From positions 134,501-198,500 of the forward strand of contig NW_024882766.1 of assembly GCF_019059575.1 (NCBI RefSeq): a stretch of DNA of 64,000 nt, written 5' to 3'. The notes beneath the pieces were generated by a model that made no database searches, was not told the DNA's origin, and worked only from the letters and a program-made list of their open reading frames with translations. A program made the translations under genes and the position numbers. This DNA comes from Amphibalanus amphitrite. Taxonomy: Eukaryota > Arthropoda > Thecostraca > Balanomorpha > Balanidae. Shown piece by piece: positions 3,015 through 56,609 of this stretch; position 1 is the first letter of the stretch, and each line of letters starts with the position of its first letter.

Positions 3015-3029
3015 ATCCCTGATGGTTAC

Positions 3030-8698: not shown

Positions 8699-10121
8699 CC
8701 CTCGCCGGCCGAGGGGGGGGGGGTGCCGCCCCCCATAGGGTTTTTCACGATAGCTCCGAACACGCCGGCGATAGAGAGCTGAAACTTGGCATACCTACCT
8801 GACCTTTGATCCAAGCCGCATTTTGCGACACCAACCGCATTTTCAGGTCAGGTCAGGTCACTGACCTGTGACGTCATAAGTGAACCTCTGCACAGTCCTC
8901 AGACGTCGCAACTTCGCAACGCCGTCAGTGCCAGAGGAACTTTCACAGGGAGATGAAACTTACATACAGGATGTAGTATCCTCCAGAGGTCTCCCAGCTT
9001 GTATATCTCGGATTTTCCCTAAAAATCACATGAGGTCAGGTCGGCCACGTGACCTCACCAATAATCACCATTAGGTATAACTCAATGGGGAAAAATGAAA
9101 ACTGCTATGTTAGCGCCGAGAACTATCTCAAACTGTCTCCAGCACATGGAATCGTGATTTCTTGCACGCCTTGCAACGTCCGATTCTTCACTTTTGCATT
9201 GTTGACATTCTTTGACGTCATTTATGGTCACTTGGGTCATTAGAGTTTTTCATCAATAACTCCCCATCAAATTGAGTTAGCGAGTCGGGAAGGCCACCAA
9301 AAAAAACTCAGGAAGACCTGCCGATTCGAGTAATATGTAACATGACCTCTTTCAATCATCTTCGTGATCTGGGGGCGCTGACCTGCCCTTGACCCGAGGT
9401 TAACACCTCAAGTTGACCTCACCCGAACAAAAAGTACACCATTCGACGCGCCTGAGCGAGGTGAACACGATGATGCCAAAATCGCGGCTCTCCGACCGTT
9501 TTTTGCGAAGTTATGAAAAACTGAACCCTTGCCCTTGGTCACTTGACCTGACCTCAGAGGGCACCGGTTGACCTGAGACCTTAAAATCGGGTTCGCTGCG
9601 TCTTGCAACGGCGCACGCGCTTATTTTTTTTTCCGCGACGCTCTAGCTTCTAGTGGTGTCAATCGGAACTTGAATCTTCGGAATTCCGATTTTGTCCAAT
9701 GTCCAATTCGGAATTCGGTTGGACAATGACAGCAGACTTTGGACAACTTTGGACAATCGCTTGCTACACCTCAACATTCTTATAAAGTAATCGTGTTAAA
9801 CATTGATTGGCTATTAGAAAGCTCAGCTTTCGATATGATTACCACTTTTGAGCTGGTAACGATACATTAAAAGCAAATTAATTAACGGTGTTGAGTGTAA
9901 AGTATTGCGTAGATGTCGGACATCTTTGGACAAATGGCTGGCTTGGACATTTTTGGACGGACAGTCGACGTAAGTATTGGACATTGGACGGACATTGGAC
10001 ATATGTTTTCTGAAATTGACATCACTACTAGCTTCATCAGGGGCGAAATGGCGAGGGAAATCGTACCCCCCCCCCCCCCTCGGACGGCGCGTATGTAGAA
10101 AACCAATAGGTCCGGGGAGGG
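8699..10121. mobile_element. TTAA-type (piggyBac-like) element hosting a hAT MITE
   Basis: Begins CCCTCGCCGG after a decayed TTTA and ends GGAGGG before TTAA (10122-10125). Near each end is a G-run or C-run (8712-8723, 10067-10079). The interior carries AGGTCAGGTCAGGTCA and TGACGTCA. It is related to 18054-18946: both contain the words TTTTTTTCCGCGA and ATCAGGGGC near the right side. That sister has the empty site of the hAT MITE at 9651. Confidence 0.82.
9651..10027. mobile_element. hAT MITE with GGACAATG words
   Basis: Ends TAGTGGTGTCAATC and ATTGACATCACTA are inverse copies with one mismatch. CTAGCTTC at 9643-9650 and 10028-10035 is a perfect 8-bp duplication. The 377-bp interior is built largely from TTGGACA/GGACATTGG words. 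Termini match those of the elements at 21768 and 33807, whose interior word is different. Confidence 0.93.
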
Positions 10122-10414
10122 TTAATGTATCATTGAATGGGAAAATGTAACATATGTATATTTGAGCTTGCACCGTCCTCAGAAAGGTTCAGAACAGCCG
10201 TTTTCACGACGGTTGACCGAAAGCGCCAAACTTGACCAAATCTCAAGAAACCTACCCTGAAAATTCCATGAACCTGACCCAAATGACCTTAGACCTGTGA
10301 CTTTTTTGGGGGGACCATGTCGAGGGGCCATAAAACATGCATAGCACAACCCAAGTAAAGTTGGGTTCATGTGCTGACCCTTGGTGACCTGACCTGTGAC
10401 CTGTGACCTGACAC

Positions 10415-10540
10415 CACAAAATGAAATCATGCTACCAATTTCAGTGCTCACCTCAGGAATGAAATCAGCGAGGAAAGAACAGCAATATTTTTAACCAGTA
10501 AAACGCCTTTTGAGGCGACCAACAGAACGAGCGAGAGGGT
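10415..10540 (+). repeat. 126-bp exact direct repeat, copy 1
   Basis: Appears identical to 11666-11791, an offset of 1251 bp. It covers the left part of the CACGTG element and its upstream flank, so the pair records a tandem duplication or two insertions in related sites. Confidence 0.9.
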
Positions 10541-11312
10541 ATTATCAGTGACCTCTAATAGCAACATATATACATACCAGTAAAACGCCTTTTGGGCGAA
10601 GAACGAGCGAGCGAGATAGTGAGCCCTGCACGTGCGGAAGGGCGACAGGGTACTTCCAACGGGCTTGTTCAAAGCACCCTTCTAACCGGTCGCTAGCGGT
10701 GTACCAAATTTGAGCGCAATCGGCCCAGCCGTTCTCGAGATCTGGAAACGCCCCCTGCACGTGCGCACGTGCAGTAGCACCCTAACCGCAACACATGGGA
10801 ATGTATTGCCTGGTGGGTGCCTACCTGTATGCCAAGTTTCAGCGTGATCGCCCCAGTAATTACCGAGTTACTGAAATGGGAACAAATTTGGCACCTCTTC
10901 TTTTTGCATTTTGCACGTGCAGTGGGGGTCACTCACATAGATCAAGAGTATCCGACCTTTAGTAGAAGGGATGCAGCTACCCTATAAAAATTACCGCAAG
11001 ACAATCGCTTAAGCCGCTGCTGAGATATGGGCCTCTCAAAATAATTACTTTTGCAAAACTGCTTGAACACCCTTGACTTTTCATGTGGCACGTGCCACGA
11101 CGGTCACTGAGATGTATCAAAAGTAGTCAATTACGGGGTAGAAGGGATGGGGCTACCCAGCAAAAAAGACCGCAGGCTAATCGGTCCAGCGGTTGCTGAG
11201 ATATAAGCCTCTCAAAAGCGTTACAGGCCGGGCCGGGCCGCTCATACTGAGATTTTTCCGTTATATTGAAAAGACTTCGCTTCGCTCGCTGCGCTCGCTC
11301 GCTCGTAACTAG
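10485..11312 (+). mobile_element. CACGTG-palindrome element, copy A
   Basis: Starts near ACCAGTAAAACGCC with GAACGAGCGAGAGG and ends with CGCTCGCTGCGCTCGCTCG, giving inverted GAGCGAGCG-type ends. Inside is CTGCACGTGCGCACGTGCAG (10755-10775), a perfect 20-bp palindrome with two CACGTG boxes. Before it lies the conserved phrase CAGCCGTTCTCGAGATCTGG. No coding capacity. Other copies are at 11736 and, inverted, at 39426. Confidence 0.75.
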
Positions 11313-11395
11313 GCAACGTACGCCCTATTGCTGATTTTCGACAAAATGCGTTTTACTCTTTGTTATAGCGCATTCCCTAGAAGACCTGTGAACGG

Positions 11396-11606
11396 CGAAA
11401 CATTTATCTTTGACCTGACCTGTGACGTCGTCGGTGACCCCGAGGTCAATGAAATTGGAGTTCCGTCGACAAATTTGACAGGGCTATCGAGCATCGTTTG
11501 AATGTTACGGATCCGTCCAGTAGTTTCGGAGATACGGGAGGGGGACAAAAAAATGCCTCCCCCACCGCGCGGAAGGTGGCCGGGAGGTCCACCGCCTGCC
11601 CGGTTG
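11396..11606 (+). mobile_element. Fragment of TTAA-type element (right end)
   Basis: Matches the right part of 32590-33766: TTTGACCTGACCTGTGACGTC, GAGGTCAATGAAATT, AGTAGTTTCGGAG and a G-run/C-run pair. It ends CCCGGTTGATG where intact copies end GGGTTAA. Confidence 0.72.
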
Positions 11607-11665
11607 ATGAGAGCCTGAATGAGAGAAAATGTTTTTAGGCGAGCTTTTAAGGAATTCAATAAAAA

Positions 11666-11791
11666 CACAAAATGAAATCATGCTACCAATTTCAGTGCTC
11701 ACCTCAGGAATGAAATCAGCGAGGAAAGAACAGCAATATTTTTAACCAGTAAAACGCCTTTTGAGGCGACCAACAGAACGAGCGAGAGGGT
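11666..11791 (+). repeat. 126-bp exact direct repeat, copy 2
   Basis: Second copy of 10415-10540. It leads into copy B of the CACGTG element. Confidence 0.9.
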
Positions 11792-12424
11792 GGGCCTTGG
11801 ACAAGTGAAATTGCCAGGGACACCTCCAACTAACTTGTGCACTGCACCCTACTAACCGCTCCCTAGCGATGTGCCAAATTTGAGCGCAATCGGCCTAGCC
11901 GTTCTCGAGATCTGGAAGCGGCACCCTGCACGTGCGCACGTGCGAAGTGGGTCCCAACCGACTTTTCACGGCACCCTGCTAACTGGTTCCTAACCATGTA
12001 CCAAATTTCAGCACAATCGGTTCAGCCGTTCTCGAGATCTGGAATCGACCCCTGCACGTGCGCACGTGCAGCAGCACCCCAACTGTGGCACATGGATATG
12101 CATTGCCTAGTGGGTGCCTACCTACATACCATGTTTCAGCGCAATCGGCCAAGTAGTTACCAAGATATTGCAACAATTACAAAACTGACACCTCTTCGTT
12201 TTGCACGTGCCACGTGCATAAGCGGTCACCCACATGCATCGAGAATAGTCCAATACTTGGTAGAAGGAATGAAGCTACCGTACAAAAATTATTGCATGTA
12301 AATCGGTCAAGTGATTGCTGAGATATAAGCCTCGCAAAAGCGTAACCACGGCCGGCCGGCCGCTCATACTCAGAAATTTCCGTTAATCTACGAAAGACTA
12401 CGCTCGCTTCGCTCGCTCCGTAAT
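11736..12424 (+). mobile_element. CACGTG-palindrome element, copy B
   Basis: Same organisation as copy A. It contains two tandem modules, each with the phrase GTTCTCGAGATCTGGAA followed by the CACGTGCGCACGTG core (near 11928 and 12053). It ends GCTCGCTTCGCTCGCTCCGTAA and is non-coding. Confidence 0.75.
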
Positions 12425-12999
12425 GATTTCTTCAGACTAACAATGCCTCAGCCATATTGGCACGCTACTGGCTGAAAATAAGTTGCTTAAAAAGACCCAC
12501 TGAATCGCCACGATTTTAAGTGCATGTCATCTCTATGTATAAGATCTCTATGGTAGCACTTAAGATGACGTCACAGTGACGTCGTACAGTTTTGTGGTTT
12601 TCCTATATGGAGCATTTCTGATGTCGCTGAACATGAAACTCAGCTGTAAATGAACTAAACAGCACCTGCTGTCATCCTCACACATCTAAGTACACTTACA
12701 GCTAGTTCCTGATCAATGCTCGGTCCTTTATATTCGGTCCCATATATCGGATATATCGTGAGGAAACTAAGAGTCGCAAATCTATATGTTGACTTCTGAC
12801 GTCACTGTGATGTCCTTGCAAGTAGGATCGACACAAAATTTAGACACAGCCTCGGGCTAGATATTCAGGAAGGTGTGTGCAAAATTTCGCTTCTCTATCT
12901 CTTCGCGTTACGCCGATATCGTCGCAGAAGGAAAGGGGGGCAACTATATTTGCCCCGCCCCCAGCGGCCGGCGCCGGGTGCCGCGGACCTCCGGGCTAA

Positions 13000-14385
13000 G
13001 CATTCATATAACTTCTTTACTTATGAAAAGCATTTTTGTAGCACAATGATTATTTGCAAGCTTGCTCACCACCATAGGAGTTAAATTGATGCGTTCTTCA
13101 GTTTGGTAAAAGCTCACACTTTTGTCACACCAGCAAAATCATCAACAAAAGGAAAACTATCCTCCTTTCCATTGGATGAAATAAGTCCAAATCGACCCTG
13201 GACACTGGCCGCAACATCACTTTGCGCCCTATCGCGTGCACCGTTCAGAAGACCTCTGACCCTGTGAGCCGGTGACATGTCAGTCCAGGCGAGCGGCGGC
13301 AATGGATGCCCTCAATAACTGGAGATTTATCCCGGCTACGTGCAGACTTATCCCCGTCTCTGGCGAGAAATGATCCATGAGACGGTTATGGGGTGCTGCC
13401 ACTCAGCTCCTAGCAATCAGGGCACGGCGCTGCGCCGCCGCTGTTCGGGCGAGCCAGCGCCGACCGGGGTGCGAACTTGGCCAACTTACGGCGGCAACTC
13501 GCTGTACAGTTAATCAGGTCTATTGATCTATGGCCCTTCATCCGGCACAGTTGGTAGGCTCGCCGCCTCTCAGAATGTCTAATTAAATCAGCCGTGTATT
13601 ATTCGGAAAGTTATTGCAACTGGACGTCGGCATCTTGAACGAAACTTTTGTCACTAGCGGGAACTCGTGATATGGGACCATGGGCGTCTTTTTCTAGTGA
13701 CTCCTATGGTGGGGATCTCTGGGCAAAGGCTAAAAAGATAGATCCCTTATGGAGATGTTCCAATGACGAAGGAGATTACTTATTGAGAGGGAAAACCCAC
13801 TGGCTCCACGCATACTTAACACCCCGTGCTACGCAGTATAACCAACAGTGTATCGCGTGTCTTATCACATCTATATTGCTGGTACGATTAAGGACAGAGG
13901 TGTCAGCTGAAAAGGAAGTGGCTCATGTCTAACGGTCTTGGAAGCAATTATCCTTCCAAAAGCTTGCGTTCAGCAAACGAGCAACACCAACACGTTAAGG
14001 CAACATAGCGCAGCAGTAACTAGATCCAAATAAGCCGGTCAGGCTAACATCAAAGCAAAGTCAAGAAAAATGAAATATCAAAATATGACGAAAACAATCC
14101 ACATACACGTTAATACTTCTTGCTTAGGCAGGCTGTATAATAAATTAAAATAGACGGCTTGTTCTAAAATTAAAACACATAGAAACATGTCCGATGCAGT
14201 TCTCCAACACTTTGCGTGGAGCTGGACCCTGCAGATCATGAAGCCACATTGAGCGAGATTTAGGAACTTGCGTGGCTGTTGCGCGTGTCGTCGGCTTTTT
14301 AGCGATCTCAGTCCCGCTGTAAGTAATAGCTCCGTGTGTTTGATGACCGGCCGATGCATTGGCAAAATGTGCAGCTAGGTAAAAC
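13000..14385. other. Unassigned stretch
   Basis: I see no recognisable gene or repeat. Short open frames here (for example 13648-13932) have no family resemblance and no splice context I could defend. Confidence 0.4.
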
Positions 14386-14387
14386 TA

Positions 14388-16265
<1,878 letters not shown>

Positions 16266-16273
16266 TTGTTGAC

Positions 16274-16331
16274 CAGTAGCGGCGAAATACCTTCACGGTG
16301 CCCCGGTGCCCTTCCCGTTCCGCCGCCTATG
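16274..16331. mobile_element. 58-bp hAT-like micro-element
   Basis: Left end CAGTAGCGGCGAAA and right end TTCCGCCGCCTATG are imperfect inverse copies. TTGTTGAC at 16266-16273 and 16332-16339 is a perfect 8-bp duplication. Very short even for a MITE, so it is perhaps a deletion product. Ends resemble the CAGTGGCGGCGGAA start at 31011. Confidence 0.75.
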
Positions 16332-16609
16332 TTGTTGACATGAAATATGAACACATTTAGGGAAAATATCATAGGCCTTGACAGAAAGCGGGGCGAGCTT
16401 TGCAAATCTACAAAATATGGCAGCACATTCTTGCCTTCAAAATGCAGTAAAACAATATTTATTACGGGTGAATAGCGCCAGAGTACCTTACACGCGTACA
16501 ACAAACAATTTATTGGACGTCAACATCAACGTTGCCTCACTTTTGGTGAAATTTGAATCGTTGATGATGTTTTATTTCGTTCTGTCTGATCTGCTTAAAT
16601 CACCTTTAA

Positions 16610-17788
16610 CCCGCGCGGGGCTGGGGTCTCCAGCCGAACGCACGGGGCTGGGGGGGGGGTAAATTTTACCCCCCCCCCCTGTTATCTCCCGAACTAATGG
16701 TCCGATTTGGAAAAATCAAACGCCAATCGAAAGAACTCATGACGAACAACTAAAAACATGTACTTAATTTAAAGTTTGAGGTCAAGGTCAAGGTCAGGTC
16801 AAGGGTACAAATTGCAAGTTTCTACAGTATCGGCCTTGCACCGTAGTTGCCGAAGAATGGGGTCATCGACTGAGACTGATTGCCCAAAACGTGTTCTTAG
16901 GCTACCAAGACAATATTCGTTGCATACAATATCATTCCGAGGTCAAGGTCAAGGTCAGGTCAGGTCAGGTCAGGTCACCAAAAAAAAACAAAATATAGAA
17001 AAGGGCATGTGCGACACATGTTTTATGGGTCATTTTACTCATAGAATTCAATAGGCACACTCAATAAGTGATATGGACCACTTCTGGATGAATTTCAGGT
17101 CGAGGTCAGGTCAAGGTCAGGTCAATAGAGGTCAAATTTTGAAGTTGGTTGTTAAGGCCTAAAATGGTGTCTATCTGATGCAGTTTTTCACGGCGAATCG
17201 AATGGTGCTATTTTTGTTTCCGTACGAGGTCTAGAACTTCCAAAAAAATCATTTTTCAAAAATTTTGTGTGTCGTGACGTCATAAAATCTTGAATAACTC
17301 CCACATTTTTGAACCGATTCTTCTAAAATTTGGTATGTAGGTGCACATAGACCACTTCTCTGACATATATTCCGGTTTTTTCGATACACTCAAAATTTTG
17401 GATTTTATAATCATTTTCCCAAAAAATCAGTTTTTTTTAGAAAAAAAAAATTGGGCAAAAATCCCAAATTTTCAAAAAACCGAGATAGCCATTTGATAGA
17501 CAAAGTAAAATTACGTATAAACTTTTTTGTTACATCTTGGTTCCTTTTAAAATGAAGATGTTAGCGGCGTTTGAACTTTAACGTTTTTGAGGCGAAAATG
17601 GCGAACATGACGTCACTAAAACGTCAATTTCTCAAAAATTTTATGACGGATTTCGCTCAAATTTTCAGGGAACGTGTCAAATTGATGTAAGAAAAGGTAC
17701 TGAAAGTTTGGCGGCGCTGCGCGCCGTCGTTTTTGAGATATTGCAAAAATTCGCGAGGGGGGTAAAATACCCCCCAGCCCCGCGCGGG
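16610..17788. mobile_element. TTAA-type (piggyBac-like) element, 1179 bp
   Basis: TTAA at 16606-16609 and 17789-17792 flank ends CCCGCGCGGGGCTGGGG and CCCAGCCCCGCGCGGG. The subterminal hairpin at 16641-16680 has a G-run, TAAATTTTA and a C-run. The interior holds long runs of AGGTCA half-sites (16778-16805, 16938-16978, 17098-17135) and TGACGTCA. Non-coding. TTAA targets with CC-start termini fit the piggyBac superfamily; Kolobok also uses TTAA. Confidence 0.85.
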
Positions 17789-17792
17789 TTAA

Positions 17793-19119
17793 CCCGCGCA
17801 TGACTGGGTGTGTGTGGGGGGGGGGGGGGGGCAGGCAAGACACCCGTTTTCCTGCAATATATTCTAAACCGTTCTACGTATCAACACGAAACTTGCTGTA
17901 CCTTTAGCGGCATCAATTTCACACCTTGCATATGAATTACAACTTTCTAGCTACTATAGCTCGGCCGAAAATGACGTCAGAGTGACGTCATATTGGCCGA
18001 TTTTAAAGCAAAACATTGAACTACGGTAATCGCTCTTAAAAGCTTAATTTTAACCCTCGCATGTGTAGGGGGGGGGGGTCGGATGGTCCCCCCATGCTTT
18101 TTAGCGAATAGCTCGCGCAAAAAGCGGAATATCGCAACGAAACATTCAGTACCCTCGAGTTGATCAACTTTACACCTACTCTGAAAATTGTATGACCCTG
18201 ACCCAAGTGACCTTTGAACTGTGACATATTTATCGAGGCCATGTTTGGCCGGAATCGCGATTCGGCGTATGTCGGCTCGCAATAGCCGCGCGTTTGCAAG
18301 CTTCGCGTGGTTTCAAACGCTCAAACATGATATTTGATGTTGCTCCAATGCATTTGGGTGGATTTCAAGGTCACCTGTAGGTCAGGTCAGGTCATTGACC
18401 TTTTTTGACCTCGGTTCACTTTTTCGAGATTTACATGTTTCTAGGCTAGTTTTTGGAGCTGAATTCGAATTTATCAACCATTTGAACATTTACAAAGTAG
18501 TTTTGGTGCCTTCGTAACATGTTAAGAAGCTATCAGAGGCGGTCGACACGTACTACGAATACCGGTCACGACGCCTACTGGTTAGTGGTTGACCTGACCT
18601 GACCTGACCCGACCTGGTCTAAATGCTTAAAGACATCATCTTTGATCAAAACTAACACGATATTCGTGATCATCACCCAGAAAAACCCCTTTGCGGCCAC
18701 ACTTTACGACTTTCTTACAGCTCCCGATTTTCCCGACTTTGGTTTATTGACCTGACCTGGAAGGTCAACCGATGACCTAGGACCTTAAAATTGGGTATCA
18801 TTGGCTTCCTCTCGTGACGGGCAACACGCTCGTTTTTTTCCGCGAAGATCTAGCTCCATCAGGGGCCAAACGCGAAGGGGGGGGGGGGGAGGTCGTACCA
18901 ACCCCTCGTGCCGTCGAAGGACTCAAAATGGCCTGTGACGCGAGGGTTAATGAAAACAGGTTTCGCTCGACAGTTTTTCCAGGGCTATCAGACGCCGTTT
19001 GAATTTTGACGACGTGCCTAGCAGTTTCGGAGATAGGAGGAGGGGAGGGGGGGCTCTGTAGAGCCCATCCCCTTACCCCAGTCACTCGCGTTATGGAAAA
19101 TACCCACGTCAGGCGCGGG
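17793..19119. mobile_element. TTAA-type element abutting the previous one, with nested copy
   Basis: Starts CCCGCGCATGACTGGG directly after the shared TTAA (17789-17792) and ends GGCGCGGG before a decayed TCAA. The left 260 bp match the start of 32590-33766 (GCATCAATTT, ATGACGTCAGAGTGACGTCA, CAAAACATTGAAC). The right part from 18951 matches its end (TTTCGCTCGACAGTTTTTCC, GCTATCAGACGCCGTTTGAAT). Another TTAA element sits between. Confidence 0.8.
18054..18946. mobile_element. TTAA-type element nested in 17793-19119
   Basis: TTAA at 18050-18053 and 18947-18950 flank CCCTCGCATG...GCGAGGG. It has a G-run/C-run hairpin near the left end (18068-18094) and a G-run at 18879-18890. The interior contains GGTCAGGTCAGGTCATTGACC and TGACCTGACCTGACC. 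Length 893 bp, no coding capacity. Confidence 0.85.
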
Positions 19120-19675
19120 TCAACCCCGTCGTATATTAAAAATTATAGCGGAAAACTTATTTCAGCCCCGAATGTGTACTTCCGGTCCTCAAAATAACGA
19201 TATTGGTCACGATGTGGCTGTGTCATTGTCATATGTTAATTTCAACTGCCTTTACTCAGGAAATGTGTAGGTACTCATCTTCACCAGCCTTCGCACATGA
19301 ATGATAACTCCGTTTCAAGATGTAAGATGCTACACTTGCGGTGGCTTGGGCCGTGCAGTGCATGCTACATTTGCGGCGTAGAGCCACCTTCGTACTATGT
19401 AGACACGGACATCTGAACTGGCAGCATCAAAAGAGCCACAGGCGTGTTTGGTGTGAATTATCCACGCTACTAAATCGATAAATCGACGCGTAATAACAGG
19501 CAATATCACGCCAACTAACTATGCCTTGTGTGTTACAAAATAACGGCTTCCGTTGCGTTGTGCACATCTTCATATGACGGGAACTAACCAACTCCTAAAA
19601 AGAGGGATATTATGTTTAGCTTGTCACAGCTGACAAATGTCCTTTAACTAAGCCAAGCAAAATACACTTCCTTAA

Positions 19676-20727
19676 CCCGCGCCCGGCTGGGGGTCCTGGA
19701 TTTCCACGCCCTGCTGGGGGGGGGGGGTGTTTGAACACCCCCCCCCCTTCTAACTCGGCTCCTGGGCCACGTAGCGATACGCGGAAGGCGGAGTTCGAAA
19801 GAGCGTAAAAAATAATGAGGAAATCACTTCGGTCAATTTTTTGGTCAGGTCAAAGGTCAGGTCACCAGAGGTCATTGAAGGCAAAATTTCGCCGATTTCC
19901 AGGTCGAATGTCAACAATTTCCAAGAAGCCAGCGCATAACTCGGGAACTAATAGAGCTACAGCGCCGCGGAAAAGCGTATTCGATAGCCCTATTAACGCC
20001 CTTTCTGAGTAATTTTCTCAGATTTGACCTAACGTCAACGGTTTTGCCTGCAGGGGGCAAAAACTGCAAAAATAGCCGATTTTTTCGGAAACAGTTTTTC
20101 TGCAATAACTTTTGACCCAAGCTTTGTACGAGCTTACTTTTACCGGCATCGTGTTCCTCTCGTCAAGACGCATCGAATAATCTATAACTTGACCTTGAAA
20201 GGTCAACTTTAAAATTTGACCTCAGGTCAAGGTCATGACCTGACCGGAAAGGGTCATGTTGCATATCAGTCAATCCGTATCGTCGAGCTGAACACATCTA
20301 AGGCGTTTTCATCGCTCTAGCATGCCTCTATCAAAAGTTATTTGCGAAAAACTGTTAGATACCATTCGTGACCTAAGATGACCTCAGGGCATAAACAGGG
20401 GTCACGGACACCATTTTCATGTTCAGTGTGTCTAAACCACTTGTAATTTAGTGTTTGGGAGTGTTTATAATGTCTTTCGTCCAAAAGAGGCGCATTTCAA
20501 TTTTCTCCCATTGACTTATAATGGGGAGGTCGCAAAATTGACTTGACCTTAGGTCACCGATATCAAAATTCCAAGATGAACATTTGATAGATACTGTTAC
20601 CCTTATTAATCGCTGAAAGTTTCAAAGCGATCGGTCACTCGGTGTAGCTATGCGCCGCCGTTTTTGAGATATTCGCAAAAAACCACAAGGGGGTGTTCAA
20701 ACACCCCCCCCCCCAGCAGGGCGCGGG
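19676..20727. mobile_element. TTAA-type (piggyBac-like) element, 1052 bp
   Basis: TTAA at 19672-19675 and 20728-20731. Ends CCCGCGCCCGGCTGGGGG and CCCAGCAGGGCGCGGG are inverse with small differences. Perfect subterminal hairpins: G-run TGTTTGAACA C-run near 19718-19748 and GGGGGTGTTCAAACACCCCC near 20689-20713. The interior carries AGGTCAAGGTCA. A degraded relative is at 46692. Confidence 0.87.
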
Positions 20728-20818
20728 TTAAAGATCAAGTGCATAGTGCGTTCGCCTGGAACCTATACATTCTTATTCGTTTTGAAATATTACTGGTCAG
20801 ATCATCTTGACTTCATTC

Positions 20819-22029: not shown

Positions 22030-22039
22030 GAAAGCTGTG

Positions 22040-22750
22040 AGCCGATGAACGGAAGTGGAGGTAGCGGCCGGAGGGCGCGCGCGGTGCCGTTTCCCAACGA
22101 GGTCAGGTCAGTGATGCACCTTTGTCCTCTACTCTTTAGCCCATTAGAAGCAATTTTTGGAACAAAAATACTCATGTGACAAAGAGCTTTCAAAAGCAGC
22201 TACTAGAATAGTCACCCATAAATAAGGAAATGAATCAACCATATAAACTAACTTCCTATCTTCGGCACCCACGCCGCCATGCTTCAATATCATTCGCTAG
22301 AATATGCTTAGCATAGACTCCCACATAAATAAGAGTATATTCACCATGGATGTGATCATTGATGTCTAGCAAATGACCCAAACTGCCAGTTCGCTTGGTG
22401 CAGGTACGGCATATGGGTTTAGAGATCATCCTTTCACCTTTGATCTTACATAAACCAAATAGCCGTCTGCGGGCGGAAACTTACATAAGTTATTTCCATT
22501 CAGTATATTTCAGTTCGGTCTAAAAGTGGCCGTTTGCCAGCGAACGGGCAAGGCCTATCATTTCCAATAAACCGTAGGATGGACCGAAAAGCAAGCGCTC
22601 GGATGCATCGGCATGTGTGATTATGGTACATACATCCGATCACATTGCAAAGATCTATGAAAATTAAACAACCATTTCAGCTGCTCTATTTTCACCAAAT
22701 TTAGCACCAGCCATAGGCGACAGAATCGTGTTCCACCAGGCTAAAAATAT
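22040..22750. other. Unassigned stretch
   Basis: No gene or repeat recognised. GAGGTCAGGTCA at about 22099 is a stray half-site pair. Confidence 0.35.
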
Positions 22751-22754
22751 TGTG

Positions 22755-23260
22755 AAATGCCAAAACTCGGCGTCGACGAGGTCGCCTTGTACCACGTCTG
22801 TCAGCTGGAAGCTTCTGATAGCGCCCGTCGGCCTGTGTTGGTTGATGCGTGACTAGCTCGGCGGCGTCAGCGGCAGCGGCGGCGCGGCAGCGACGTGATA
22901 TGGCGCGTCGGCTCTACACGAGTGGCGGTTGCGAGACGTAAAATGACGCATTGAGAGTGCCGAGCGGCGTATTGTGACGGAAAGTGGCGCGGCGGAGGCG
23001 TGGGTCGGCGCGAAGCGAGCCATCTATCTGGGGTCGCCCGACGGTGGCGGGCCGTCGTCGGCCGCGATGCGTCGTAATTGTGTTTACCGCGACAGCACCC
23101 GGTCGAGAGCGCCAGTTCCGCACCCGCCGCGCCGGATTGGCCACATCGAGATGAGAGAACGCGGTCCGGCGCGTAACGCGATGGACTGAGAACTGGGGGG
23201 GGGGGGGAGGGGCACAGCCGCGCTGGCAGGATGGAGGGGAGGGCACGAAAGGGAAGGTGA
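22755..23260. promoter_or_regulatory. CpG-rich tract, possible promoter or 5' exon
   Basis: Strong local rise in GC and CG dinucleotides (GGCGGCG, GCGGCGCGGCAGCG) ending in a G-run at 23196. Such tracts also accompany the receptor exon at 37 kb. Open frames on both strands here reflect the GC content, and I recognise no protein. Confidence 0.35.
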
Positions 23261-24920: not shown

Positions 24921-24924
24921 ACGG

Positions 24925-25070
24925 TGACATACGAGCTGGACAGGGTCGCGCCGGACAGCCCTGACCAGAGCGCGCCCTCGGGACCCGCCGCCGGCGGTCG
25001 CCGCCGGCGTCCGGTGACTGCCGATACGCGGCGCGGGGCTGCGGGGGCGCCCCAGATGCCCAGGGTTGTT
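24925..25070. promoter_or_regulatory. Short CpG-rich tract
   Basis: Dense CG dinucleotides with the near-palindrome GCCGCCGGCGGTCGCCGCCGGCG near 24986-25008. No associated gene seen. Confidence 0.25.
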
Positions 25071-25245
25071 AGCGTGATGGATGAGATGTCCCCAGTACTG
25101 ATTTATGCCTGAAACGGGATATTTCAGAGCGCGTTCAACTGTGAAAATGAGCAGCAGTGTTGATTGGAAACTGTGGAAATATGATGTCGCATGATGTGAT
25201 GAATAGGCTGGTTCATTATTTGCTCAAATGCATCGGATTTATTAA

Positions 25246-25836
25246 CCCGGCGGCCGCTGGGCCTCCGCGCCACCCGCCGGCCGCTGGGGGGGGCATAAAG
25301 TTGCCCCCCTTTACTTCTGCGACGATATCGTCGCAACGCGAAGAGATAGAGAAGCGAAACTTTGCACACATCTTCCTGAATACCTAGCCGAGGTTGTGTC
25401 CAAATTTGGTGTCGATCCCATTTGAAATGACGTCACAGTGACGTCATAAGTGAAATTATAGATTTGCGACTCTCATATTCCTCACGATACATCACATATA
25501 TGGGACCGAATATAAAGGGCCGATTATTGGTCAGAAACTAGATGGAAGTGTAGTAAGATGTTTTAGGATGACAGCAGGTGCTGTCTAGTTCATTTACAGT
25601 CGAGTTTCATGCTCAGCGTCATCAGAAACGGTCCATAGCGGAAAACGACAAAACTTTATGACGTCACTGTGACGTCATCTTAGGTGCTACAACCACCAAA
25701 CTTTCCTCAAACATTGCCTAGGTATTCATTTGAAGCTATGCCAAGTTTCACGTTCGTAGCTCATCAGGTTTCGGAGATATTTCACAAAACGTAAAGGGGG
25801 GGCAACTTTATGCCCCCCCCCCCAGCGGCTCGTGGG
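25246..25836. mobile_element. TTAA-type (piggyBac-like) element, 591 bp, uninterrupted copy
   Basis: TTAA at 25242-25245 and 25837-25840. G/C hairpins GGGGGGGCATAAAGTTGCCCCCC (25285-25309) and GGGGGGCAACTTTATGCCCCCC (25796-25820) are mutual inverses. The inner halves are inverted too, so the whole element folds on itself. TGACGTCACAGTGACGTCA occurs at 25428-25446 and its inverse at 25659-25677. This is the intact sister of the split element at 8260-12995. Confidence 0.9.
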
Positions 25837-25840
25837 TTAA

Positions 25841-26444
25841 ATTATTAATGATTCAGCATAGAACATCCTCATCTCAGTATCTCATTAGTTTCTTAGCCTT
25901 TTGATAAGGATAAATAATCATTACATCTAGAAAATCTCGTTGTTTTTTTTTTTTGCCGTGTCGATAAATGATGCAACTGATTTTGTTTCTCTTTTAGACA
26001 ATGTGTTTGTCGTGTGTCCCAACCTTGTTGAGATATATGCCCTCCCGGTTTCTAAACAATGTGGCTGGCTGCATGCAGTTATTGCTGTTGGCCAAAGATC
26101 ATTATGCAACATCCTCTTCCGGTTGAAACCTCTCGGAGGTAAGAGTGTTAAGTTGATTGAGCTGTTAGGTAGAAATTCCGAAGAGGTGGGCGCTTCTGAT
26201 CGAAGATGGGAATGCCTGCTGTGTGCTGTAGAATAGGGCTTTATTATTTTCCAGCTTAACGTCAACATAATCGTATTTTTAGCCATTCTGGTAATCATTC
26301 AAATGTCCTTGAAGATTGACCTAACCAATGCTGTTTCTGATGCGCCGTCTGGCATGAATGCAATTTAGAATGCAGCGTGACATGACCGGACGTTGACGGA
26401 AATCGCAGCATCAAGAGAACATGACTCAAAATCCCTGGTTCAGC
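25841..26444. other. Unassigned stretch
   Basis: A T-run at 25941-25954 and an open frame at 25940-26236 with no recognised family. Nothing else stands out. Confidence 0.35.
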
Positions 26445-26527
26445 AGAAACTACAGTGGCGCAGCCAGGGGGGGATCAGAGGGTCAGCTGACCCCCCCGAA
26501 ATTTCTGTCAGGGGCCCGGTCTGGTAT

Positions 26528-26663
<136 letters not shown>

Positions 26664-26730
26664 GAGAGGTCCTAATCTAATCGGACGAGCCCGCTTCGAA
26701 AATGCGTACTGGGACACCACGGGTGATGGT

Positions 26731-27512
26731 CCATGGGCCCCAGGTGCAAGGGGCCCGGGCCCCGGGTAGATGGGGCACGGACCCCGGGTAGATGGGGCCC
26801 GGGCCCCCCGGTAGATGGGCCCGGGCCCCCGGGTAGATGGGGCACGGGGCCCCGAGTGGATGGAGCCCGGGCCCCCGGGAGAACGGGCCCGGGCCCCGGG
26901 TGGATGGAGCCCGGCCCCCCGGGAGAACGGGACCCGGGCCCCGGTTGGATTGAGCCCGGGCCCCCGGGTGGATTGAGCCCAAGCCCCCGGTGGATGGAGC
27001 CCCGGGGCCCGTGCCCCCGGTTGGATTGGACCCGGGCCCCGGGAGAACGGGGCCCGGGCCCCGGGAGAACGGGGCCCGGACCCCTGGGAGAACGGGACCC
27101 GGGCCCTCGGGTGGACGGGGGCCCGGGCCCCGGGTGGATGGGGCCCGGACCCGGGATAGATGGGGCCCGGGCCCCCGGGTGGATGGAGCCCGGGCCCCCG
27201 GGTGGATGGAGCCCGGGCCCCCGGTGGATGGGCCCGGGCCCCCAGGGGAACGGGCCCAAGCCCCGGTTGGATGGAGCCCGGTCCCCCGGGAGAACGGGGC
27301 CCGGGCCCCGGGTGGACGGAGCCCGGGGCCCGGGTGGATTGAGCCCGGGCCCGGTGGATGGGCCCGGGTCCGGGCCCCCGGGTGGATTGGACCCGGGCCC
27401 CGGGAGAACGGGGCCCGGGCCCCTGGTGGATGGGCCCCGGAGCCCCGGGTGGACGGAGCCCGGGCCCCCGGGAGAACGGGGCCCGGACCCCTGGGAGAAC
27501 GGGGCCCGGACG
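26731..27512. repeat. GGGCCC-rich minisatellite
   Basis: About 30 degenerate units of roughly 21-28 bp built from GGGCCCGGGCCC, a palindromic 12-mer, alternating with GGTGGATGGAGCC or GGGAGAACGG. Collagen-like Gly-Pro frames are open on both strands because the unit lacks stop-forming words. I interpret them as artefacts, not a collagen gene. Confidence 0.92.
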
Positions 27513-27735
27513 CGTATTCGCCAATTGTATTACACGAATCGGCCCACCAACTAGCGACATCTCTAGTGCGACGTCATAGCCGTCCGCCGCGACAATGCAT
27601 GCATTGAGGCTAGATTTGAGTTGAGACTTTTTGCAATTGTATATGGCTGGCCGTTACATATGTGTCGTTGTAGCCGAGTGGTTAGAGTCTCGGTGTGGGG
27701 AACGAAAGGTCGGTGGATCGATTCTTGCTTTAGCG
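27513..27735 (+). repeat. Left arm of inverted repeat, with tRNA-like segment
   Basis: CGTATTCGCCAATTGTATTA and the following 220 bp recur in inverse orientation at 28717-28940. The arm ends in a degenerate tRNA-like sequence at about 27664-27735, with A-box-like GCCGAGTGGTTAGAG and weak B-box GATCGATTC. The acceptor stem is not intact. Confidence 0.8.
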
Positions 27736-28501
27736 GTTCTTTTCCCTTAAAAAGAAGTCGGTCGTAGACGCGCATTTTTGGCCCCTACGTTCGCACGCCA
27801 ATATCGTACGCCCAATAAATATCTGCCAAGTATTCATCTGATTAAGGAATAAGTTCCAAAAGAACTGCAGTTGCAGTCTATACCTGAACTACCAATTTTG
27901 TTACGGCACTGTCGATATTCGTCAAAGTCGGAAGAGCTATTATGAAAGTTGAAACACACTCGAATGACAACGGATTCCTGTATTATTTCATCGATCAGAT
28001 AAGACATGTATAGAGATAAATTGATGACAGACCGCCGTGAGCATGCAACTTAACAACCAGTCCCAAGTTATCTTCATAAACGTCTAATATAAATCTTTTT
28101 GATTCCAAGTAAGGGGACTTAGGTATCCCCCTGGCGGCTGAAATGTAAAAGTTATAGTTAGGGCATAGCTCCTATAGATGACGCTCTGACGGCTGGAAAC
28201 TGATCTCGTCCCGTGATTACGCTAACAGCTATGCCGAACTTTTTTTGTGCATGGTGATTCTTACACGAAAAACGATCTGATAGCCTGCTAACCAGCGTGC
28301 GATTTTTACTTTTCATCTTAGTTTTCGCTACTTTTAGGTACTTTACCTTGCCAAGGCCCACCTACTTTCAAAAGGTCAGCGCTGCCCCTGTCATATGCTG
28401 CGTGCTATCACCCATTGGCAGTGAGAAATATTGATCAATGGCCATCGCCTAGCACCGTTTGTCTTTCCATTGGCTACGTTCGCATAGTATGCACTATGCA
28501 T

Positions 28502-28600
28502 TAGTGATGTCAATCACAGAAAATCAGAACACCGATACCAAACCAAATACAAACAAAGACCATTGGAAAATACCGAAACCGAACCAATCGGTTGGACTGC
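28502..28600 (+). mobile_element. Orphan end of the ATACCAAA-type hAT MITE
   Basis: TAGTGATGTCAATC followed by ACCGATACCAAACC matches the left end of 21768-22029. The candidate duplication CTATGCAT (28494-28501) has no partner downstream, so the right end is missing. Confidence 0.75.
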
Positions 28601-28716
28601 AAATATTTATCTTATGCAACATATTCATTAGAAGAACTCCTACGTCTGATTTCTTAGGTGCACGCCGTTGCAAATGCATAAAAAAACGCACAATGACAGA
28701 TGACACGAAAGTTGAA

Positions 28717-28788
28717 GTCGCCGAGTGGATTCGAACCACCTACCTCTGAATCACCAGTCCGATACTCTAACCACTCCGCAACGGCAAC
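28717..28788 (-). tRNA. tRNA-like sequence or pseudogene (72 nt)
   Basis: On the minus strand a 7-bp acceptor stem is perfect with G-U allowed (GTTGCCG/CGGCGAC). The A box GCGGAGTGGTTAGAG and B box GGTTCGAATCC are good, and the T arm pairs (GGTGG/CCACT). The anticodon arm does not pair convincingly, so an isotype cannot be assigned. Together with its decayed inverted partner at 27664, it is better read as a tRNA-derived component of a mobile element than as a working tRNA gene. Confidence 0.5.
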
Positions 28789-28940
28789 AACAGACTCAGA
28801 GCAGCTTAAATGTCATTAACTTAAAACCTAGCTTCAAAAGACGCCACCAAGGGCGAGGACCGAACGTATGACGCCACGCTGACGTCACTCAAGAGGCACG
28901 CTATTGGTCGGCCGATTCGTGTAATACAATTGGCGAATAC
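28717..28940 (-). repeat. Right arm of inverted repeat
   Basis: Inverse of 27513-27735: the same order of minisatellite, CACGAATCGGCC, ACGTCA, GCTAG-containing segment and tRNA-like end. Identity is high near the minisatellite and falls towards the tRNA-like end. Confidence 0.8.
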
Positions 28941-29062
28941 GCGGCCCGGACCCCTGGGAGAACGGGACCCGGGCCCTCGGGTGGACGGGGCCCGGGCCCC
29001 CTGGTGGACGGGCCCGTAAGCCCCGGGTGGACGGGGCCCGGGCCCCGTGTGGATGGGGCCCG
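28941..29062. repeat. GGGCCC minisatellite, second array
   Basis: Same unit as 26731-27512 (GGGAGAACGGGACCCGGGCCC and relatives), adjoining the right inverted-repeat arm. It runs directly into the 1-kb dispersed repeat. Confidence 0.9.
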
Positions 29063-30102
29063 CTAGGGTGACCCGCCTGCTCCACAACGCGGATAAGGGG
29101 TATTTTTGATCGGTAGGCGTTTGGTTGGTCTTGTCTCCGTGGGCTATGTATCCATTTCCGTCGATTGCTTTTTGACGGCTAAACATTTTGGTTTGGGAAA
29201 AAATATCCATCGCATCGAAGTGCCCGTGTCAGATAAGCGTGCGTTCTACTATAGAACATGTCAACTGTATTTTATAACATAGGTTGACGTAGGTCATTGA
29301 AAAAGGAAAGCCAGCGATGAATTGCCATGTAGAGGTTTGAAACATTTATCTTTTTAAGAACGATGTTGCTCTTCTTGCAATAACGATGATTGGATCTAGG
29401 ACAAAATTTAATGCTCTTTCCAACGATGCCATTTTCAATTGTCAACCGTATCAGGTTATGCAGCAAACCCCATGTAATTAAGCAAGTGGCACATCATGGA
29501 CAAATATGTACTATGTTCTCCAGCCTTTGTTCCACCTTGTTTTTGATCAATTAGCTTTTCACATTTTTCATGAGAGGCGGTACATTTCTCTTGCCTATAG
29601 GTGTTATTTGATTTCGCCCCGTCTGACAGTCACCCGAAAATGGTATAAGGTCCAAAATCCGTCTGAAACGTCAACTTTTAAGCAAAAGTGCCTCACAGGT
29701 GCACGTGGCGCGTGCCATTTCCTGCATCGCTCACCATTCGATAGCGCGTTCGATTTACTACGAGTACACGATACTGTGGTCCCCGTGCCGATCGGGTCCA
29801 CGGTTACCGAGATATTGCACGCGGACCGGACCCGTGTTGGGCAAATTTAGCAATTTTCGCCCGATTTTGCAAGCCGATTTATGCATGTAAAGTCTATGAC
29901 GCGAATTTGCACTTTTTGAGCACGCGCCATGTGCTCACCACCCCGGATCGAGCTGTGACCCCTCACAGGCACGTTGTCCATCCTTGTTCTATAAGTTGTG
30001 CAAATTTCAGCGCGCTAGGTGCAGTCTGCAGGCCTGCACCCTGCGCTAAGTAACACCATGGAGTAACACCATGCCGGGACCTCGGTAACAGACAGAATCT
30101 AC
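29063..30102 (+). repeat. Dispersed 1.03-kb repeat, copy 2
   Basis: Collinear with 7007-8040, starting CTAGGGTGACCCGC and ending in the CAGACAGAA(T/A)CTAC word. A local duplication of AGTAACACCATG occurs near 30050-30071. Non-coding. Confidence 0.8.
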
Positions 30103-31010
30103 ATCATGACATTACCACAACACAACAAACCCGGCAAAAGGCAATAAATGTCCCATATGAGCGCGTTAAAATTTCTTGTGAGCGAATTCACGTAATGAAG
30201 ACGAATAATGGCACAATCTAGGTACTACAGCTGCCATTAGATGACTTTAGGACAGGCACATGGGACTACAAAGTACTATATCATATCTTGTCCGACAGAA
30301 GCAGGCAACAGCTCCGTTTGCATTTATACTATGCATATTGCGGAAGGCGCACATTTCGTCCTCGAAAGATACGAATTAATACTTCATAGTAATAGTACCT
30401 ACCTATATTTCTGTCGTGGTCAATTTGCGTGGAAATTAACCCATTGATGACACGCCGGGTGATTACCGAGCTATTGTTCTATCAAAACTTTCCGATTCAA
30501 ACTCGCTCAGGGTTATCGTGCAGATAAAGGGGGCCCACCCAGCAGAATGTGTATAAAATATGGAGAGATTCTGAAAAATGGGTGGGGGGCCCGCACACTA
30601 GGGGGCCCGCTATGGAGGCGATGACCCCCCCGAAATGAAATCCTGGCTGCGCCACTGAGAAACTAGTTTTGCTTATCGCTTCAAAACTGACATATGAGAC
30701 TGACACATGACTCGGTATGCTCAGCACACATGAAAACATTTTCATTTTACTAGCAAAACAATAGTGAAGCAGCCTGCTACCCATCCCTAGGCGTTTTGCT
30801 TGAAACCGCGCATATTTCGACTACCCACCCCAAGATATTTTGCTTAAAGCCGCACATAGTTCGCAACACATTTCCATCTAAGAGTAGCAGAAGCACAACT
30901 TTTATTCAATGCAGAGAAAAGAAATGCACTAAATCAGTCCAATTAGGCTCTAATTAGATGAAAAAAATAAGCCGACAAGTGCATTGTGCACTTATACCTA
31001 CCAGTACGAT

Positions 31011-31170
31011 CAGTGGCGGCGGAACACCTTCAATTAAGGGGGGCACTGCCGACTTTTGGTCCCATTCTTTCCATGCAACGCCCATAGGGTTAATGTTAAA
31101 ATGCAAAAATCAAAGGGGGTACGGTGCCCCGGTGCTCCCCCCCCCCCCCCCCACGTTCCACCGCCTCATT
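31011..31170. mobile_element. Possible hAT-like element, degraded
   Basis: Left CAGTGGCGGCGGAACACC and right TTCCACCGCCTCA are inverse-like, and an internal C-run follows GGTGC words. Flanks AGTACGAT and ATTACAAT agree at only six of eight positions, so the duplication is weak. The left end resembles the 58-bp element at 16274. Confidence 0.45.
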
Positions 31171-32585
31171 ACAATGACGCGGAAGTTGACACCACATCGG
31201 GCCGGGGTCAGTGACTCGATTCTGGTGGAACCCGGCACAGTTCCCGAGCGAGCGAGTCCAACTGATCCGATGAGTGGATTATCCACGGCTCAGCCCAACT
31301 GATGTCCCCGCCTCCCCGGTCTCACTGATGTGATCGAATATCTTACGTAAGATGTCAGAGCACCCGTCGCGAGTGCGTATGCTCAGATATGACCCATGCA
31401 AGGATCGGACCATTTACGTAATACAAGCACTACAGGATAAAGTAAAAGTTACGTTTCATTCGATACCTTCGAAACGCCTTAGGGTATACCTACCAGTGTC
31501 TTGACAAGGAAGTCAAAAATCTCTTCCTCTGTTCGTGTTAGCAGTCGACTCTAGCGTTACATGTAGTTCATGCTAGCAGAGGGGCCCGATGAGGGTGATG
31601 TCATTAGTGCGCACCATTATGCGGTCGACATGGTGATGAGCGACGAGGGGGCAAGGGGTGAGGCGACCGGACGGTTTTCGACTGATGGCACCTGTCAGAT
31701 GGACCCGACAGATCCCATCAATTTCAGCCGGCAGTGCAGGACTGACAGCGCTTATGGTGTTACAGGACTAATGAAATAAACCGCCATGGGTTGAACATGA
31801 TCAAAACACAATGCACTTTTGTGGGACTAGAAAAAGTGACGTCATTAATCCACTTATAGAACGGTGACGTCATTTGCAAACCACTGACGTCCGACGCTTG
31901 ATTTGATGTCTAATTTCTGGTAGAGACTAGATGAAGACAAAAATATGTTTCAGAATCCATTGTGCGACTTTCAGCGCACATATATCAGGACAAGACGTTA
32001 GCTAGCACACGACGCTCAGTTTAGCCCATCCCCTGACAAGAGCTCCGATGCATTTGGTAATTGTTTGTCGGTAAAAGCTTCTGTAAACTGTTTGAATTAT
32101 ACGACTATCTGGACCTAGTAATGATTCAATGTCGTAGCGGGGATTAATGTCGCACATTCGATTGAGGCGGATCCTTCAGTTACATAACCAGTTCCATCCA
32201 TCTATCCATCCGGCTGTCGAATTAAAGAGGTAGATTAATGGCAAATTACCCCGTAGCTGCATTTTGCATCACATAACATGGGACATGTGTAGCCTAAATG
32301 CTCACAGAGGCCACAGAGCATTCGACTTCTGACTAGTGACTTCAACCGTTTTAATAAACATAGGAAAATATGGATCCATATTTTTGTTATGTACAAGTGT
32401 GTAAAACACTCAAAAACAATGAAACCATATAGAGGAAAAACAAAAATGGAGAGCATACATAAACAGTTAGCCTGATTCCACTTCCCCGAATAGCAATGTT
32501 TTTGACACATAGTGGACACATAGTGACAAACACATAGTGGATGTAAATGGTGGCAATGCATGCCAACGGTCTGAGCACCTAACTG
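31171..32585. other. Unassigned stretch
   Basis: No gene recognised. Two TGACGTCA sites occur at about 31838 and 31867. Nearby open frames carry no known motif. Confidence 0.35.
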
Positions 32586-32589
32586 TTAA

Positions 32590-33766
32590 CCCGCGCCCCA
32601 CTGGGGGGGGCTATTTATAGCCCCCCCTCCCGTTTTTCTGCAATAATTTCCAAACCGCTTAACGGATCGACGCCAAACTTTCAGTACCTCTGGCTGCATC
32701 AATTTGACACCTTGTGTCGAAATTTGAACTTTGTAGCTACCATAGGTCGGCCGGAAATGACGTCAGAGTGACGTCATGTTCGGCCGATTTCGACGCAAAA
32801 CATTGAACCACGGCAATCGCTCCCAAGAGCTCAGTTTTTAAGCTAGATCCAATTTCTTTGCATGAAAGAACTCAGAATTGACCGCGCTATCAAACTGCTA
32901 TCTCGGATTTTCAAAATTTTGAAAATTCTGAAAATTTTATATAATAATATTCAAAATTGATATTTTTATATTTTTCTCAAAAAGTTTTTGACTTTTCGAA
33001 AAAGCCGGAATATATGTGACAGAACGCATGATTATGACTAACTCTAGCAAGTTTTAGCTAAATATCTTCAAAAATGGCCAAGTTATACGCATCATTGCAA
33101 AAAATTCACAATTATTAATTTTTCAAATCAATTTTTCAGTACGTATTTGACATCGTACACCAATATAAATGGCACCATCGTGTTCCTGAGCTCAAACTGC
33201 ATCCAATAGACACCTTTTTTGTTGAAAAATTTTAACTTCAAAATTTGACCTTTTTTGACCTGAAAGTGACCTGACCTAAGCTAAGTTCGACTCAAAATGA
33301 CCTCGAATGACACAGACGACATCAAATTCGAAATCTATGGCCTAAATGGACCATAAAACATGTGTCACGTGACCGACGCATGGTATAATATTTTCGTGAC
33401 CTATGATGACCTGACCCTGACCTGAAAATCAAAGTACAAGTTTGGTACCCTCAAGGTATCTAGAGAATCTGTTCACGAGTGTGGAAACCAAAAATGAGCC
33501 TGATCTGACTTGTAAGACGGCGGCCAGAGCCCAAAAGGTGAACAAGCCAAAATGCTAATAATTTTTACTTTGACCTGACCTGTGACGTCATCGGTGACCT
33601 CGAGGTCAATGAAATTAGGTTTCGCTCGACAGTTTTTCCGGGGCTATCAGACGCCGTTTGAATTTTGACGATCGGCCCAGTAGTTTCGGAGTTAGGAGGG
33701 GGGCTATGAATAGCCCCCCCCCCCCCCAGTAGGGCGTGTTATACACAGACCCCAGTGGGGCGCGGG
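32590..33766. mobile_element. TTAA-type (piggyBac-like) element, 1177 bp
   Basis: TTAA at 32586-32589 and 33767-33770. Ends CCCGCGCCCCACTGGGG and CCCAGTGGGGCGCGGG are almost exact inverses. Hairpins GGGGGGCTATTTATAGCCCCCC near 32602-32626 and GGGGGGCTATGAATAGCCCCCC near 33699-33722 lie inside each end. TGACGTCAGAGTGACGTCA lies at 32758-32776. TGACCT half-sites occur at 33245-33275 and 33410-33425. Non-coding. Confidence 0.9.
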
Positions 33767-33806
33767 TTAATAAGGGCGCAGTACAAGCCAATATTTGTGT
33801 ACTTAC

Positions 33807-52163: not shown

Positions 52164-52169
52164 TTAAAC

Positions 52170-56604: not shown

Positions 56605-56609
56605 TTAAA

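Follow-up and report, generated by a model that had tools for sequence, protein, structure and literature searches.

In a 64,000-nucleotide stretch of the genome of Amphibalanus amphitrite (contig NW_024882766.1, forward strand; G000:C1269:134501-198500 in our numbering, hereafter the window), the word AGGTCA (or its complement TGACCT), a half-site of nuclear receptors, and the palindrome TGACGTCA recur in short clusters inside non-coding transposons flanked by TTAA. The clusters follow one another at nucleosome-scale steps of ~172 bp, the DNA between them shows a 10-bp periodicity of A/T dinucleotides, and the words mutate less than the surrounding DNA. We favour the reading, at a probability of about one half, that these are piggyBac-type miniature inverted-repeat transposable elements (MITEs) whose interior forms a nucleosome-scale ladder with transcription-factor sites between the nucleosomes, kept since it helps the element. 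The phasing, the spacer periodicity and the constraint go beyond an earlier note on this DNA, which had drawn attention to the words themselves.

The motif carriers of the window have inverted ends that begin with CCC (variants CCCGCGC, CCCTCGC and CCCTAGAACGCC, the last of which we take to resemble the end of the T. ni piggyBac). They lie between TTAA sites, as the earlier note had it, with two degenerate exceptions: TTTA to the left of element H (at 8695) and TCAA to the right of the element at 17789-19123. Judged by these targets and ends, the carriers are non-autonomous, piggyBac-type transposons. The longest stop-free frame lying mostly within a delimited element spans 114 amino acids (frames of 110 and up were listed), and the elements are like MITEs in being short and non-coding, with inverted ends and many homogeneous copies; at 0.6-1.2 kb, with clusters along the whole length, they are longer than most. 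Our family sample consisted of the window and 20 pieces of contig C1 that were picked for containing ends, and is hence non-random. In it, the CCCGCGC-ended elements fall into three subfamilies of ~1.19 kb, namely G, C and T, which have 7, 3 and 14 copies and mean pairwise identities of 0.965, 0.949 and 0.967, respectively, a 1,382-bp pair in piece L055 being omitted by the length limit of this comparison (1,300). Further families in the window are W (two copies of 954-955 bp), Z, S and H; X comes from L053 and Y from L055.

The assembly searched (807,550,619 bases in 2,644 contigs) holds 20,564 exact matches to the terminal pattern TTAACCCGCGCNNNNCTGGGG and none to the same pattern read backwards; because each intact element has two ends, this suggests that the subset by itself numbers on the order of ten thousand elements. 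Three stretches of viral contigs with the pattern (61-64% G+C; 3, 4 and 0 AGGTCA) were taken as chance. In the window, AGGTCA/TGACCT occurs 128 times versus a mean of 28.7 in 100 dinucleotide shuffles (sd 4.5, maximum 39), a 4.5-fold excess, and TGACGTCA 23 times versus 0.9 (maximum 4), about 25-fold; 84 of the former and 17 of the latter fall within the 8,710 bp of seven delimited element stretches. Outside these, AGGTCA stands at 0.80/kb versus 0.45/kb expected, part of it in undelimited fragments. An unprejudiced ranking of all hexamers placed AGGTCA first in each of the four families ranked (G, C, T and W), with 12-21 occurrences per CCCGCGC element and 7 per W element. Genome-wide, the composite motifs exceed their reversed-pattern controls one hundred- to about one thousand-fold: 11,720 versus 11 for the double TGACGTCA site (TGACGTCANNNTGACGTCA), 20,300 versus 27 for AGGTCANTGACCT (an inverted repeat, IR, of spacing 1, IR1), 150,702 versus 866 for AGGTCAN{0,12}TGACCT, and 265,299 + 268,293 (533,592, both strands) versus 2,373 + 2,156 for AGGTCAN{0,12}AGGTCA. 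Most of these matches come from related element copies, and the figures thus measure abundance rather than independent events.

The AGGTCA places named in the earlier note are all present, as runs at 8845-8860 (TGACCT comes next, at 8862), 16779-16801, 16940-16977, 17103-17134 and 18379-18394, and as TGACCT runs at 18590-18605. Of the four places given for the palindrome TGACGTCAnAGTGACGTCA, those at 17972, 25428 and 32758 are exact, whereas the copy at 25659 is the reverse-complement form TGACGTCACTGTGACGTCA. By its sequence, TGACGTCA is a palindrome of CREB/ATF type, and in the double site two of them stand 11 bp apart, about one helical turn. Among adjacent AGGTCA pairs in eight family representatives, the overlapping direct repeat (DR) DR-1, AGGTCAGGTCA, is the commonest direct spacing (26 pairs), next to the receptor-type arrangements DR4 (10), DR0 (7), DR5 (4), IR5 (4), IR1 (4) and others. 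Inverted pairs (78 innermost pairs from the first 100 listed places on C1) are spaced mostly by 1 (22), 5 (15), 11 (14) or 6 (11) bp, more rarely by 0 (6), 7 (4), 10 (3), 2 (2) or 9 (1), and never by 3, 4 or 8; spacing 1 is that of strong ecdysone-receptor palindromes. The proposal that these words are receptor and CREB motifs holds up insofar as they are enriched, non-randomly arranged and constrained, receptors are encoded in the genome and IR1 is favoured, and receptor or CREB binding, even a hormone or cAMP response or an influence on genes, may occur at them. A plain hormone-response reading fares less well: the commonest arrangement is the overlapping AGGTCAGGTCA, on which two receptors could not bind both half-sites simultaneously; AGTTCA, which the classic RGKTCA consensus includes, shows no enrichment (1.3-fold, with the variant GGGTCA at 5.7-fold); and spacings of 5, 6 and 11 are common. 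We also rejected a telomere-like reading of the AGGTC repeats, a rotation of the beetle telomere word TCAGG, as the arrays are short and internal, run in both orientations and are interspersed with single sites and TGACGTCA.

Within the elements, clusters recur mostly every ~155-208 bp, some gaps being double or irregular. A single shared period of 172 bp outperforms 2000 random placements, and when each homology group was represented once (T; G or C; W or X; Y or Z; S; plus H, whose right part is homologous to Y/Z, so that the groups are not fully independent), all eight combinations gave 172-174 bp at p = 0.001, the floor of the test. The outermost clusters lie 181±11 bp from the ends (16 ends, eight families); the element at 17789-19123, with a single cluster 192 and 242 bp from its ends, was omitted from the end-distance and gap tests. 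Among the pairs listed on C1, 8 of 29 successive distances below 700 bp between inverted pairs lie at 161-188 bp and 9 at 343-369 bp, and 13 of 15 distances below 400 bp between direct pairs lie at 150-195 bp, the other two being 329 and 332 bp; several of the latter set come from G copies. Furthermore, the spacers show a peak of AA/TT/TA dinucleotides at 10.0-10.2 bp in both dereplicated sets relative to the window background, sharpest at 10.1 bp in 17 inner spacers selected by length (90-175 bp, a limit that biases their mean of 145 bp). Such periodicity is a classic signature of nucleosome-favouring DNA, and we take it here as a putative nucleosome-positioning signature.

The words are also the part of the elements that resists change. 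In T and G copies together, 24 substitutions fell on motif sites versus about 80 predicted from trinucleotide-matched context, a depletion seen in the first sample and again in a held-out set of later fetched copies (16 of 20 new copies; L059, L063, L064 and L076 were dropped for lack of a right end by our rule, L076 also for few shared words). Isolated AGGTCA sites are likewise protected in T, and TGACGTCA changed once in 256 sites in G copies. Between three pairs of diverged families, agreement was 0.98, 0.72 and 0.91 at motifs versus 0.88, 0.53 and 0.62 in the rest of the interior, with shifted-mask fractions of 0.010, 0.000 and 0.000. The words probably do something for the element or the host, an unusual mutation or repair process being a further but less likely possibility.

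Several observations weigh against a selected nucleosome ladder. Some gaps do not fit one nucleosome, such as 329 bp in G, 504 bp in C, 231 bp in S and 89, 96 and 224 bp in X, and in the remaining fetched DNA, with known families masked, 13 of 46 dereplicated gaps fell at 140-180 bp, an excess that does not clearly surpass the 8 of 23 reached by one among four control word sets. The limits for merging clusters were set after the pattern had been seen, and subterminal parts are homologous across several families, so that the equal end distances are partly a matter of shared descent. G+C dinucleotides in the spacers lack a peak at 10 bp, and a fixed rotational phase of the spacers relative to the clusters was not found and had to be rejected (Rayleigh p 0.42 at the left edge, 0.29 in the middle and 0.014 at the right edge; three tried). 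With respect to constraint, isolated G sites had no power (1 versus 2.0 expected), and deletions are more frequent in the motif arrays than elsewhere. Finally, singletons were as depleted as shared variants (18:3 in motifs versus 313:86 elsewhere, p 0.59); we therefore rejected selection visible in shared but not in singleton variants, and selection on transposing lineages is indistinguishable from constraint after insertion.

How such a ladder might work can be outlined as follows. The non-coding interior would alternate spacers of about one nucleosome, with their 10-bp AA/TT/TA rhythm, with short clusters of AGGTCA or TGACGTCA that would serve as protein-binding sites maintained by selection among copies. 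The likeliest binders would be host transcription factors expressed where transposition pays, in the germ line or early embryo: for AGGTCA a nuclear receptor, e.g. of NR5/FTZ-F1 type, and for TGACGTCA a bZIP protein of the CREB/ATF kind. Sitting in the linkers between positioned nucleosomes, they could ensure that a piggyBac transposase provided in trans reaches the element, and accessible copies would transpose better, for instance through chromatin opening, which would maintain the ladder. Candidate binders are at hand, as the assembly has 77 exon-level zf-C4 matches; the one DNA-binding domain compared among 12 fetched pieces (L081) found its best matches among solved structures in NR5A2 (E 1e-43) and SF-1, and the others appear, by eye, to be HR3-, HR78-, HR38-, HR39- and USP-like. 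Several receptors (L079-L087) come as pairs of similar DNA-binding domains (judged by eye as HR3-, FTZ-F1- and HR78-like), and these may be either paralogues or haplotypes left uncollapsed. NR5A2 is described as preferring nucleosome entry-exit sites (PMC11102866), a preference that would suit sites beside a nucleosome. A stronger version, in which the transposon encodes its own chromatin, unrelated interiors having converged on or been held to nucleosome-length spacers with one receptor or cAMP-response-element (CRE) cluster per linker, is one that we hold tentatively, as somewhat short of an even chance.

The main rival, rather unlikely in our view, is that AGGTCA (and TGACGTCA) is recognised by the DNA-binding domain of the transposase that moves the elements and is reiterated along them to raise affinity, host receptors being irrelevant. 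It would account for a motif that is constrained and a hallmark of mobile families, and for outermost clusters at a near-constant ~181 bp from both ends, a region in which piggyBac is known to require internal domains; transposases also abound, with at least 116 scored piggyBac matches in the genome. Yet the clusters run through the whole 0.6-1.2 kb instead of keeping to the subterminal parts, element S lacks AGGTCA altogether, and one protein would have to read two unrelated words. Nor is the array general to piggyBac here: in eight piggyBac elements that carry a transposase and have defined ends, AGGTCA occurs 0-4 times each versus 1.3-1.6 expected, although none of the eight has the CCCGCGC or CCCTCGC ends of this family. 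An autonomous partner with such ends was not found among the piggyBac loci examined, a subset of the matches: of 30 transposase loci (L009-L038), 19 had a possible end pair (one weak) and none bore CCCGCGC or CCCTCGC ends of its own; two further families (L091-L094) gave none. In one case (L028:7-3825), an element with CCCGCGCCC ends encloses a piggyBac that has CCCATTAGTGCCCA ends and an open frame for the transposase (667-3347), which demonstrates TTAA insertion into the family but not which transposase moves it.

The remaining explanations give the words less to do or a different beneficiary. That the elements grew by duplicating an ancestral ~170-bp unit of end, spacer and motif cluster, with phasing and words as its relics, is improbable; W does have an internal 93-bp direct repeat of 85% identity and subterminal parts are alike in several families, but after masking of the motifs no more than 3 of 188 spacer pairs from within an element score above the 99.9% point for shuffled pairs, and relic descent leaves unexplained why the words alone resist mutation. 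We rejected the tandem-module origin on the grounds that spacers within one element are unlike each other. Very improbable is a neutral, microsatellite-like growth of functionless (AGGTC)n and (AAGGTC)n: steps of 5 and 6 bp resemble slippage and deletions are in excess in the arrays, but the palindrome TGACGTCA is no slippage product and is nonetheless enriched and conserved, and the identical word turns up in families whose interiors show no detectable homology. Slippage alone was rejected as the cause, as protection extends to isolated, non-tandem sites. The scatter of hormone- and cAMP-responsive sites raised in the earlier note, taken to mean that the elements matter chiefly by placing host genes under ecdysone or cAMP control, could draw on the sheer number of AGGTCANTGACCT and double TGACGTCA sites and on the encoded receptors; however, the choice of half-sites and their overlapping arrays are unlike a standard response element, and the constraint belongs to the family and not to gene-near copies, and we consider it quite improbable.

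Table. Motif-carrying elements delimited in the window (positions count from the first letter of the window)
Element	Position	Strand	Ends and structure	Motifs
H	8695..10125	+	left end degenerate, TTTACCCTCG (TTTA); right end GGGTTAA at 10119-10125; interrupted at about 9653-10030 by a later insertion (limits by eye)	clusters 8845-8876, 9033-9055, 9213-9220, 9343-9419, 9544-9574
Diverged relative of S	12553..12976	-	84-86% inverted match to 25268-25690	TGACGTCA at 12566 and 12797 (separation likewise 231 bp)
G	16606..17792	+	TTAACCCGCGCGGGGCTGGGG at both ends	AGGTCA clusters 16779-16801, 16940-16977, 17103-17134; TGACGTCA at 17275, 17608
C-like	17789..19123	+	TTAA common with the G element; right end degenerate (TCAA); carries nested element Z	double TGACGTCA at 17972-17990
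Z	18050..18950	+	TTAACCCTCGC...GCGAGGGTTAA; nested in the C-like element	clusters 18208, 18368-18411, 18590-18605, 18748-18778, one AGGTCATTGACCT among them
T	19672..20731	-	shortened copy	clusters 19847-19874, 20025, 20190-20241, 20369-20384, 20544-20556; no TGACGTCA
S	25242..25840	+	599 bp	double TGACGTCA at 25428-25446 and 25659-25677 (separation 231 bp); no AGGTCA
C	32586..33770	+		double TGACGTCA at 32758-32776; TGACGTCA at 33583; TGACCT clusters 33246-33303, 33397-33423, 33571-33608
W	51214..52167	+		TGACGTCA at 51792, 51980; AGGTCA/TGACCT clusters around 51384-51422, 51597, 51808-51818, 51996
W, second	55654..56608	-	inverted relative to 51214-52167; one end TTAACCCTAGAACGCC	

The 231-bp pairing of TGACGTCA seen in S also recurs at several places on contig C1. 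A reading of 51214-56608 as one long-terminal-repeat element was rejected, as it consists of two inverted elements of ~955 bp, each with its own TTAA ends; the pair flanks ~3.5 kb of other sequence and could act as one composite unit. Between 16600 and 33770, long stretches of G and C near each element terminus form palindromes, GGGGGGTAAATTTTACCCCCC for example, and a phrase like tatctcNgaaactactgNNccgat stands just inside many ends (16680-20700 and 32630-33700), as well as inside other repeats (10650-12400, 39800-40040). Elsewhere, the window holds retroelement remains at 685-3855 that we take to be Penelope-like (an RVT_1 match below the curated cut-off in 685-2082, a GIY-YIG match in 2833-3855), a GC-rich array of 22-23-bp tandem repeats (GGGCCCCGGGTGGATGG...) at 26735-27509 with a further piece at 28939-29062, a tRNA-Thr with anticodon GGT on the minus strand (28716-28788) that could be a tRNA-derived repeat, and related repeats with CACGTGCGCACGTG words in opposite orientation at 10415-12395 and 39455-40119.

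That mobile elements spread receptor sites, as SINE B1 and Alu do, and that MITEs carry factor motifs together with 10-bp periodic DNA, as CERP2/CELE2 do, is already known. Our literature search, largely at listing level, returned neither AGGTCA-bearing TTAA MITEs nor a transposon phased to nucleosomes in this way; several site clusters repeated at nucleosome-scale steps, in families whose interiors share no detectable homology, appear new relative to the literature searched. To our knowledge, SINE B1 has no multi-nucleosome array of site clusters. The CERP2/CELE2 MITEs of Caenorhabditis carry m1m2 motif pairs linked to HIM-17 and a TT bias of 10-bp period that is tied to the positioning of nucleosomes (PMC9757741). 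Like them, the present elements are non-autonomous and combine paired factor motifs with ~10-bp periodic A/T dinucleotides, here without a G+C counterpart or fixed phase; unlike them, with one motif pair within inverted repeats and a THAP-protein binder, they hold several clusters at ~172-bp steps, their words are AGGTCA and TGACGTCA, and their ends are TTAA/CCC. Nucleosomes positioned in vivo and co-option as germline promoters, which belong to the CERP2 type, would be candidate properties of the present elements. Mouse SINE B1 spreads the site TCAAGG(C/T)CA used by the nucleosome-binding NR5A2 (PMC11102866), likewise a mobile element multiplying a receptor site, although it is a retroelement with demonstrated binding. 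Primate Alu, also a retroelement, has multiplied DR2 retinoic acid response elements, i.e. AGGTCA-type direct repeats (PMC1785376); the accessible part of that report gives no phasing, and here the spacings are overlapping, DR4, IR1 and similar. The coral CMITEs, which are TTAA MITEs associated with a piggyBac-like element, share the target site and CCC ends, and their internal sequence is better conserved between families than the ends (PMC2872659); they measure ~100 bp, with no receptor words in the part available, whereas here only the words are conserved, not the whole interior.

If the ladder reading is true, this would be an unusually clear case of a mobile element in which chromatin architecture, and not protein coding or the ends alone, constrains the cis sequence, and its many natural copies with several unrelated interiors would offer a testbed for which rules matter, be it word, spacing or nucleosome length. 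The ladder reading would also imply that a single genome took in no fewer than about half a million AGGTCA direct pairs, most of them presumably element-derived, a load that would affect any search for hormone-response elements in this host. If the transposon indeed encodes its own chromatin, each new copy would assemble an accessible, factor-bound nucleosome ladder, and the family would have spread AGGTCA pairs across one genome in the hundreds of thousands.

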